Positions 25,716 through 28,028 of a DNA stretch of 64,000 nt are shown here, in pieces. The position numbers were made by a program, and so were the translations under genes. Every line of letters starts with the position of its first letter. The first letter of the stretch is position 1. The notes beneath the pieces were generated by a model, which was given only the letters and a program-made list of their open reading frames with translations, was not told where the DNA came from and did not search any database. Origin of the DNA: Actinospica robiniae DSM 44927 (GTDB lineage: Bacteria; Actinomycetota; Actinomycetes; Streptomycetales; Catenulisporaceae); contig NZ_KI632511.1 of assembly GCF_000504285.1 (NCBI RefSeq), forward strand, positions 2,973,372 to 3,037,371, in the 5' to 3' direction.

Positions 25716-26456
25716 TCAGGCGGTGAATCCACCGTCGACCGCGAGCACCGCTCCGCTGATATACCGTCCGTCCGGACCCGCCAGGTGGGCGACCGTGGCC
25801 GCGATCTCCGAAGCCTCGGCGTAACGGCCCAGGGCCGTGAAGCCGGCGATCGTGGCGGCGGCCGGGCCGTCGGCCGGATTGGAATCGGTGTCGGTCGGCC
25901 CGGGATGCACCAGGTTGACGGTGATGCCCCGCGGTCCGAGCTCCCGGGCCAGGCCCTTGGTCATGCCGATCAGGGCCGTCTTGCTCATCGCGTAGAGGGC
26001 CAGTTGCGGAAAGGGCGTGCGCCCGGCCACGTTGCTGCCGATGTTGACGATGCTGCCCCCGCCGTCCATGTGACGCACCGCCGCCTGAGCCGCCAGGAAC
26101 GGGGCGCGGACGTTCACCGCCAACGTGCGGTCGATCTCCGCCTCCCCCAGCTCCTCGAGCGGGCCGGTGATGTACACCGCGGCATTGTTGACCAGGACGT
26201 CCAGAGCGCCGAACGTCCCAGCAGCCTCATTCACCGCGCCTACCAGCGCCTCCGGGGCGGCGCAGTCGGCTCGCACGGCCAGTGCACGTCGGCCGAGGCC
26301 CTTGATCTGCTCGACGACCTCGGCGGCCCGCTCCGCGCTCGTCTCGTACGTCACCGCGACATCGGCGCCCTCTTCGGCCAGGCGCAGCGCGACGGCGGCG
26401 CCGATGCCCCGGCTCCCACCGGTCACCAGGGCGACTTTTCCTTCGAGTCGGTTCAT
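25716..26456 (-). CDS. SDR family oxidoreductase
   Basis: 246 aa, classical SDR size. Cofactor motif TGGSRGIGAA, NNAA motif, catalytic Ser in IVNIGSNVAG, Tyr-x3-Lys in YAMSKTAL, and a C-terminal GAVLAVDGGFTA. The loop after strand 2 (TYETSAERAAEVV) without an acidic residue at the strand end suggests NADP preference. Closest in style to 3-oxoacyl-ACP reductase-like dehydrogenases, substrate unknown. ATG at 26456 gives the standard family start (NRLEGKVALVTGG); a GTG at 26471 would add five residues. Confidence 0.88.
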   Translation of the reverse strand: MNRLEGKVALVTGGSRGIGAAVALRLAEEGADVAVTYETSAERAAEVVEQIKGLGRRALAVRADCAAPEALVGAVNEAAGTFGALDVLVNNAAVYITGPLEELGEAEIDRTLAVNVRAPFLAAQAAVRHMDGGGSIVNIGSNVAGRTPFPQLALYAMSKTALIGMTKGLARELGPRGITVNLVHPGPTDTDSNPADGPAAATIAGFTALGRYAEASEIAATVAHLAGPDGRYISGAVLAVDGGFTA

Positions 26457-26555
26457 GGCCACGAGCTTCACAGGCGCGGCGGAAAGTCGCTGGCGGCAAT
26501 CAGACCTGGCGTTCTGAGGGATTCATGAGGATCCTGACTCGGATCTTCATCCGAA

Positions 26556-26576
26556 GACAATTGTCAATAGTATTGA
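26556..26576. promoter_or_regulatory. overlapping palindromes upstream of the deleted hydrolase
   Basis: GACAATTGTC (26556-26565) overlaps TCAATAGTATTGA (26564-26576), two perfect palindromes in an AT-rich patch about 80-100 bp before the GTG at 26658. The form resembles MarR-type operators. The patch may also include the promoter. Confidence 0.45.
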
Positions 26577-26657
26577 GACCAATCATGGCGACCGTTAGCC
26601 TCCAGACGGGCCGCCGCTCCCCGGCGGCGCACCCCCGATGTACAAGGAGGTCCACGG

Positions 26658-27263
26658 GTGGAGATCAGACGGAGAACCGTCTTCCAGGGCGCCGGCGCCG
26701 CGGCACTGGCCGCATTCGGAGTCGCCGAGGGCTCGGTCGGCACGGCCTTCGCCGACAGCTCGCCCTCGAACGGCGCGTACTCGCTGCAGTTCGACTCGAC
26801 CGCCTGGTCCTACGACGCTGCGAACGACGTCTATTACCAGATCGGGAACGTGTACGCCGCGAACCCGGAGGCACCGGACTACGAGAACCTCTCGATCTAC
26901 GTGCCGGGCGCGTATCTGACGGCGACTCTCAACAGCGACGGCAGCACGTACACCGCGCGGGTCAACCCGAAGGGTAGGTTCGGCAGGTACTCGGCGCACA
27001 CGGCTCCGATCGTATCCCCGGCCTTCGGCGGCTACCGCCAGTCGAAGGTCTCGCCGCACTGGCGCATCCACACCGGCATCATGCAGGGCGACACCGCCAA
27101 CACGACCGAGATCAACCTGCTGCTGGCCTTGCAGAACTACGGCGTCCGCGACATCCAGTTCGCCACTGTGTGGGCCCAAGCGCACACGACCGCCGAGACG
27201 ACCGGGGACTCGACGTCCACGGCGAACTTCATCTCCTGGGTGGAGTCCATCGTCAAGAAGTGA
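26658..27263 (+). CDS. internally deleted secreted alpha/beta-hydrolase (subtype-B tannase-like), catalytic core missing
   Basis: 201 aa. Starts at GTG behind a perfect AAGGAGG. The N-terminus is a twin-arginine signal (EIRRRTVFQGAGAAALAA, cleavage near TAFADSS). Residues about 38-118 match from memory the N-terminal part of a family of about 530-600-residue secreted hydrolases (YYQIGNVYAANP, YENLSIYVPGAYLTA, HTAPIVSPAFGGY). The chain then jumps to that family's last 70 residues (SPHWRIHTGIMQGDTANTTE, VRDIQFATVWAQAHTTAETT with the catalytic-region His, and NFISWVESIVKK). The roughly 350-residue middle with the Gly-x-Ser-x-Gly nucleophile is absent and the reading frame is kept. As encoded it should not be an active esterase. 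Assembly error is an alternative. Confidence 0.7.
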   Translation: MEIRRRTVFQGAGAAALAAFGVAEGSVGTAFADSSPSNGAYSLQFDSTAWSYDAANDVYYQIGNVYAANPEAPDYENLSIYVPGAYLTATLNSDGSTYTARVNPKGRFGRYSAHTAPIVSPAFGGYRQSKVSPHWRIHTGIMQGDTANTTEINLLLALQNYGVRDIQFATVWAQAHTTAETTGDSTSTANFISWVESIVKK

Positions 27264-27323: not shown

Positions 27324-28028
27324 CTATGTACGCTCCCTTATGATTTCCACGCCTTGGGCGACCAGCTCGTCGAGCACTGTGTCGCCCTCGTCCTCCACGT
27401 CGGTGACGATCGCGGTGACCTCGTCGAGCGGGAGGACGCGGTAGCGAGAGGCGGTACCGATCTTCTCCGCGCTCGCGAGGACGTAGGTGTCGGCGGCCCG
27501 GCCGGCCAGCACGCGCTTCATCGCTGCCTCGTCGGCGTCCGCGGTGGTCAGGCCGGCGCTCGGGTGCACGCCGGTAACGCCGAGAAGGAAGACCTCCGCG
27601 CTGATCTGCGCCGCAGCCTCCGCCGCCGCGGCGCCGCAGGTCACCGCGGAGTGCTTGAAGAGCCTGCCGCCGAGCAAGAAGACCTCGGCCGCGTGATCGA
27701 GCAGCGCGGCGGCAATGGTCGGGCTGTGCGTGATCACCGTGCATTCCAGCGTGCGCGGCAGCGCGTCGACCACAGCCCGGGTCGTGGTCCCGCCGTCGAG
27801 GATGACCGTGCCGCCCGGATGGCTGAGCGTGGCCGCCGCCGCGGCGACACGACGCTTGCTGTCCAGGGCGACGGCGGTGCGGGCGGCGTAGTCGATGACC
27901 GCCGGGGATGCGGGCAAAGCGCCGCCGCAGACCCGTACGGCGAGCCCGGCCGCGTCGAGTTCGCGCAGGTCGCGCCGGATGCTGTCGGGCGAAATACCCA
28001 GCTCGGCGGCGAGGTCCTTGGCCACCAC
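27324..28028 (-). pseudogene. DeoR-family regulator lacking its first 20 or so codons
   Basis: The frame from GTG 28028 gives 234 aa with most of a DeoR helix-turn-helix (AAELGISPDSIRRDLRELDA), the sugar-phosphate-binding DeoRC domain (GGTTTRAVVDAL; HSPTIAAAL; EVFLLGGRLF; DADEAAMKR). Family members start about 20-25 residues earlier. Codons upstream of 28028 continue the homology (LLLERLSRDGR, to about 28062) but no ATG, GTG or TTG precedes them, and beyond that the frame reads another gene's sequence. So the true 5' end seems to be lost at a junction near 28070. If translated from the internal GTG, the first HTH helix would be incomplete. It could still be functional if a CTG or an unseen start is used. 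Confidence 0.6.

Follow-up and report, generated by a model that had tools for sequence, protein, structure and literature searches.

A 201-residue reading frame of Actinospica, probably left by an in-frame deletion in the gene of a secreted subtype A tannase

The 201-aa open reading frame (ORF) found in the 64,000-nucleotide stretch of Actinospica DNA analysed here (the window) is very likely an allele, most likely non-functional, of a gene for a secreted subtype A tannase that has recently undergone an in-frame deletion, and is best read as an early-stage pseudogene, that is, a loss-of-function allele with a decayed operator and promoter. The ancestor would have been a secreted galloyl-ester hydrolase of ~585-590 aa, from which one internal deletion, probably arising by illegitimate recombination over a few bases, would have removed 1158 bp, the central two thirds of the gene, with the frame kept by chance, leaving a product presumably without activity; the event was probably recent. 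A gene caller would list the ORF as a small secreted hypothetical protein, and it is the relatives that reveal the broken tannase. The preliminary description of this DNA had offered three readings, namely a recent deletion, an assembly collapse and the re-use of a small protein for another role, among which the first is the best supported, since congeners and Streptomyces carry orthologues of full length and no ~200-aa family was seen.

Two ends of one tannase in a single frame

The profile NF041555 (tannase_A, 619 positions) matched the ORF in two pieces, the first covering protein residues 39-121 (Table 1), with ~417 model positions absent between them. The total of 180 bits lies below the 550-bit cutoff for subtype A, and the orthologues of two congeners, Actinospica durhamensis CSCA 57 and A. 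acidithermotolerans MGRD01-02, reached 743 and 734 bits, so that the earlier wording "tannase-like" is accurate. A Pfam search of the 201-aa sequence assigned no family. Both ends of the ORF are orthologous to, and collinear with, one full-length gene, which identifies the ORF as a descendant of a subtype A tannase gene, and they are joined without a frameshift, as had been stated. The length of 201 aa compares with 585-589 aa in the congeners and with the ~600 aa reported for subtype A tannases (PMC8958541). The translation and export signals noted before were also found: the ribosome-binding site is a perfect AAGGAGG(T) conserved in the relatives, and the RRRTVF...AFA leader, assigned to the Tat type by its motif, is homologous to the relatives' leaders. 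Judged by sequence, the survival of both suggests that the cell could still synthesise and export the 201-aa protein.

Table 1. Positions of the ORF, its signals and its surroundings in the window
Feature	Position	Strand	Remarks
ORF of 201 aa, internally deleted subtype A tannase (tanA-like)	26658..27263	+	GTG start; two-piece NF041555 match
Predicted twin-arginine (Tat-type) signal peptide region, MEIRRRTVF...AFA	26658..26756	+	Motif and alignment with relatives' leaders RRTV[FI]
Ribosome-binding site AAGGAGGT	26644..26651	+	7 nt 5' of GTG; kept in relatives
Retained N-terminal part, edge-of-sheet beta-strands	26769..27014	+	tannase_A model 46-127
Retained C-terminal part with Gln143, Asp145, His176	27015..27260	+	tannase_A model 545-619
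Deletion junction GTA/TCC (V119/S120)	27014..27015		386 codons (1158 bp) of relative absent
Strong G+C-rich hairpin, probable shared terminator	27280..27321		Fold -40.8 / -52.6 kcal/mol; no T-run
Divergent SDR dehydrogenase	25716-26471	-	Upstream neighbour
Convergent DeoR-family regulator	27324-28028	-	Downstream neighbour
Degraded copy of conserved upstream boxes, CAATTGTCAATAG + TATTGAGACCAAT	26558..26583	+	Family consensus AAATTATCATCGA + AATTGTYAACAAT
Degraded putative -10-like box TCCAGACGGG	26601..26610	+	Conserved 30-nt spacing; family TACAGTCTGG/TACAGTCGGG; -10 role putative

Relatives were collected by scanning genome collections with a full-length alignment of the two congeners, and 27 named loci were obtained, including the two congeners, one Streptacidiphilus, ~20 Streptomyces and, at a greater distance, gut bacteria; a scan of the genome collections with the 201-aa protein as query returned nothing. 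Among 14 genomes of the family, relatives of the ORF occur in the two congeners only, both of which carry the two halves within one unbroken frame of ~630 codons. Actinobacterial orthologues are intact at 581-592 aa, except for a frame-shifted copy (L081) and a few that matched incompletely at the start, and a more distant Actinomyces orthologue measures 636 aa. Translation of this exceptional copy, the subtype A tannase of Streptomyces sp. P3 (L081:6001-7727), in a single frame meets 7 in-frame stops, which indicates a frameshift and hence either another copy in decay or an error of sequencing.

In every close relative among 294 genomes of the order, one long frame holds both halves at a separation of ~1.1-1.5 kb; both match the same full-length gene collinearly, ~1.15 kb further apart than in the ORF. 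The preliminary description had placed them about 350 residues apart, and while the separation was confirmed, the actual gap is 386 residues. It had also pointed to ~200-aa orthologues in many species as the sign of a genuine short family, and these are absent from the 294 genomes of the order. A genuine ~200-aa protein family, or a fusion of two independent pieces, is accordingly extremely unlikely: the open frame is the one observation that fits it, and the finding that every orthologue is full-length and collinear refutes it at the sampling used.

The deleted segment and the residues lost with it

Aligned with the congeners, the ORF displays a single clean gap of 386 columns and 74-78% identity over the shared residues, the absent block corresponding to A. 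durhamensis residues 124-509. The edges of this block share at most ~4-5 bp in the relatives, as in A. acidithermotolerans with ATCCCGG versus TCGCCGG. Homology of a few base pairs at the edges is typical of illegitimate recombination, and this length is far below what an assembly collapse would need. Chance alone preserves the frame in one deletion out of three, hence the kept frame is no evidence either way. Searching the genome for the missing 386 aa gave no match elsewhere, although the same type of search recovers the retained parts, and relocation of the segment was thereby ruled out. An artefact, whether an assembly error or collapse or a deletion that the sequenced clone acquired and fixed in culture, is very unlikely. 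The comparison covered one genome of the species, which leaves some room for such an origin; against it stand the host assembly, a single contig of 9.9 Mb that is 98% complete, the lack of a collapsible repeat at the edges and the absence of the missing segment anywhere else in the assembly.

The catalytic triad of Lactiplantibacillus plantarum TanLp is Ser163-Asp419-His451, with a galloyl site formed by Lys343/Glu357/Asp421 (PMC4233993), and the corresponding residues of the subtype A tannase CbTan1 are Ser216-Gln577-His611 and Lys469/Glu483/Asp579 (PMC8958541). Alignment with both enzymes gave S208-Q533-H566 and K424/E438/D535 as the A. durhamensis equivalents, K424/E438 being assigned by their 14-residue spacing and by alignment with TanLp K343/E357/D421. 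In the A. durhamensis frame, S208, K424, E438, the cap and strands 154-158, 198-207 and 251-255 were deleted. The N-terminal edge strands were kept, together with the last two strands bearing Q143, D145 and H176 in the numbering of the 201-aa product, the counterparts of Q533, D535 and H566 at the triad Gln/His and galloyl-binding Asp positions.

The nucleophile elbow of the GXSXG type, described earlier as gone, is indeed missing, as the relatives' GMSGGG with S208 falls within the deleted block, and the Asp is the only one left of the three galloyl-binding residues Lys, Glu and Asp. Loss of indispensable residues, a mark of pseudogenes, is therefore seen in the ORF. AlphaFold modelled an intact relative in the tannase fold (pLDDT 68, pTM 0.75), with the L. 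plantarum tannase structures 4j0k/4j0c as best PDB matches, while the 201-aa product modelled with the same homologues yielded no tannase fold (pLDDT 37, pTM 0.25). With the nucleophile Ser, the galloyl Lys and Glu, the central beta-strands and the cap all missing, the product is not expected to adopt a hydrolase fold or to hydrolyse tannins.

The window copy thus shares with the tannases of A. durhamensis and A. acidithermotolerans the leader, the start, the ribosome-binding site and homologous upstream boxes, and differs from them in lacking the 386 internal residues that include the nucleophile Ser and the galloyl Lys/Glu, and in its degraded control boxes. Its C-terminal part also aligns with the Asp/His region of the subtype B enzyme TanLp (PDB 4j0c, 4j0k, 3wa6), whose triad Asp419 is replaced by Gln in the Actinospica lineage and whose Ser163 has no equivalent in the window copy.

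Selection on the retained codons and the age of the deletion

When a tree was built from the retained codons, the window sequence grouped with A. durhamensis with 72% support, on a long branch (0.169 vs 0.070). The codon model estimated omega at 0.069 on the window branch and 0.090 in the background, omega = 1 being rejected by ~22 lnL units. Purifying selection on the retained codons is thus strong, and relaxed purifying selection was not detected on this branch over the retained codons, the likelihood-ratio test against the background being non-significant. A split-branch model confined a final neutral part to at most ~6.5% of the branch (1.92 lnL drop). Substitutions were found at 3 of 54 sites invariant in 17 tannases (A132S, R138H, D167Q), and in a narrower set 4 of 84 otherwise-invariant sites had changed, no more than in two intact relatives. 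The low omega and the short neutral part imply either that the deletion came late in the time since the lineage separated from A. durhamensis or that the short product is constrained.

Constraint on the product would mean that it had been retained in a different function, such as that of a secreted protein that binds galloyl groups or tannins or serves as a decoy, and selected as a short protein, which is unlikely. The frame, ribosome-binding site and Tat leader are all intact, the window-branch omega of 0.07 is clearly below 1, and the C-terminal part carries a two-codon insertion and several unique substitutions, as adaptation might leave; the intact signals and the codon constraint, in fitting a functional short gene as well, also weigh against a deletion allele. 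However, no confident fold was obtained for the product, its pieces contain none of the central strands and a single one of the three galloyl-binding residues, the short form occurs in no second species among the 294 genomes of the order, the upstream control boxes have decayed, and a recent deletion explains the low omega equally well. That the product represents a domesticated, non-catalytic secreted tannase remnant under selection in this Actinospica, with a rewired promoter, is decidedly unlikely.

As a recent deletion allele, the window gene resembles the general class of pseudogenes formed by internal in-frame deletion, in which the catalytic core is cleanly lost, the frame kept and the control region decaying, and is distinguished from them by having no stop or frameshift yet and no visible relaxation of coding constraint. 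Clean in-frame deletions of this kind are missed by frameshift-based pseudogene detection, and this one was caught before coding decay. The case, a gene broken not long ago, is ordinary, and its importance beyond annotation is slight.

Genomic neighbourhood and decayed control region

Beyond the two flanking genes, the neighbours comprise a sugar ABC transporter upstream and a PAS-GGDEF-EAL protein and a GH5 cellulase downstream. Close orthologues of the SDR and DeoR neighbours were not found in the two congeners, and none of the window neighbours is shared with the congener tannase neighbourhoods. Operon context was ruled out as a functional clue, the tannase neighbourhoods being unrelated in the three Actinospica genomes. 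The terminator proposed in the preliminary description corresponds to a very stable hairpin of 17-18 bp between the convergent ORF and DeoR gene, which pairs better on the minus strand; the T-run is lacking, and a consensus scan detected no classical terminator. Elsewhere in the genome, an intact gene of the PF07519 (tannase/feruloyl esterase) family is present (G000:C1:8971756-8973135, L093), as is one in each congener, and it could make the lost tannase partly redundant.

Upstream of the orthologues, two adjoining conserved boxes, the second of them the palindrome, precede a -10-like element located 27-41 nt past the start of the second box. In the window the order and spacing are right and the combined score, 9.5, exceeds any other in the 64 kb yet falls short of the ~29-63 reached by the orthologues, and the operator and -10 boxes of the window are the most degraded of 23 sequences, with the -10-like box changed at positions 2 (A) and 6 (T), giving TCCAGA versus TACAGT. 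A sigma-70 consensus scan found no site. The operator-like palindrome described before is a real element, homologous to the box of the orthologues, although the window holds a decayed copy of it; a position at 26559-26572 was rejected for it in favour of 26571-26583, in agreement with the upstream box and the spacing to the -10 element. Drift in the promoter boxes seems to have begun earlier than any relaxation of coding constraint; one late inactivation leaves this unexplained, and it counts against the deletion allele. Since the box divergence looks greater than expected from a late loss of coding constraint, regulation may have been rewired before the deletion, and this order of events would account for the drift.

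A modest side finding is the palindrome AATTGTYAACAAT itself: together with a AAATTATCATC box ahead of it, it is conserved in Streptomyces and Actinospica at ~80-290 bp 5' of the start of subtype A tannase genes (for example G002:C110:7511-7523, L091). It presumably resembles FadR-type GntR sites (TTGT-N2-ACAA), and its conservation at the sequence level points to a dedicated regulator. The A. acidithermotolerans genome contains a single occurrence, at the tannase gene. In A. durhamensis (L082, upstream of 2379) the element reads AATTATCGATAAT, palindromic still but changed in its centre, suggesting an altered regulator specificity in Actinospica.
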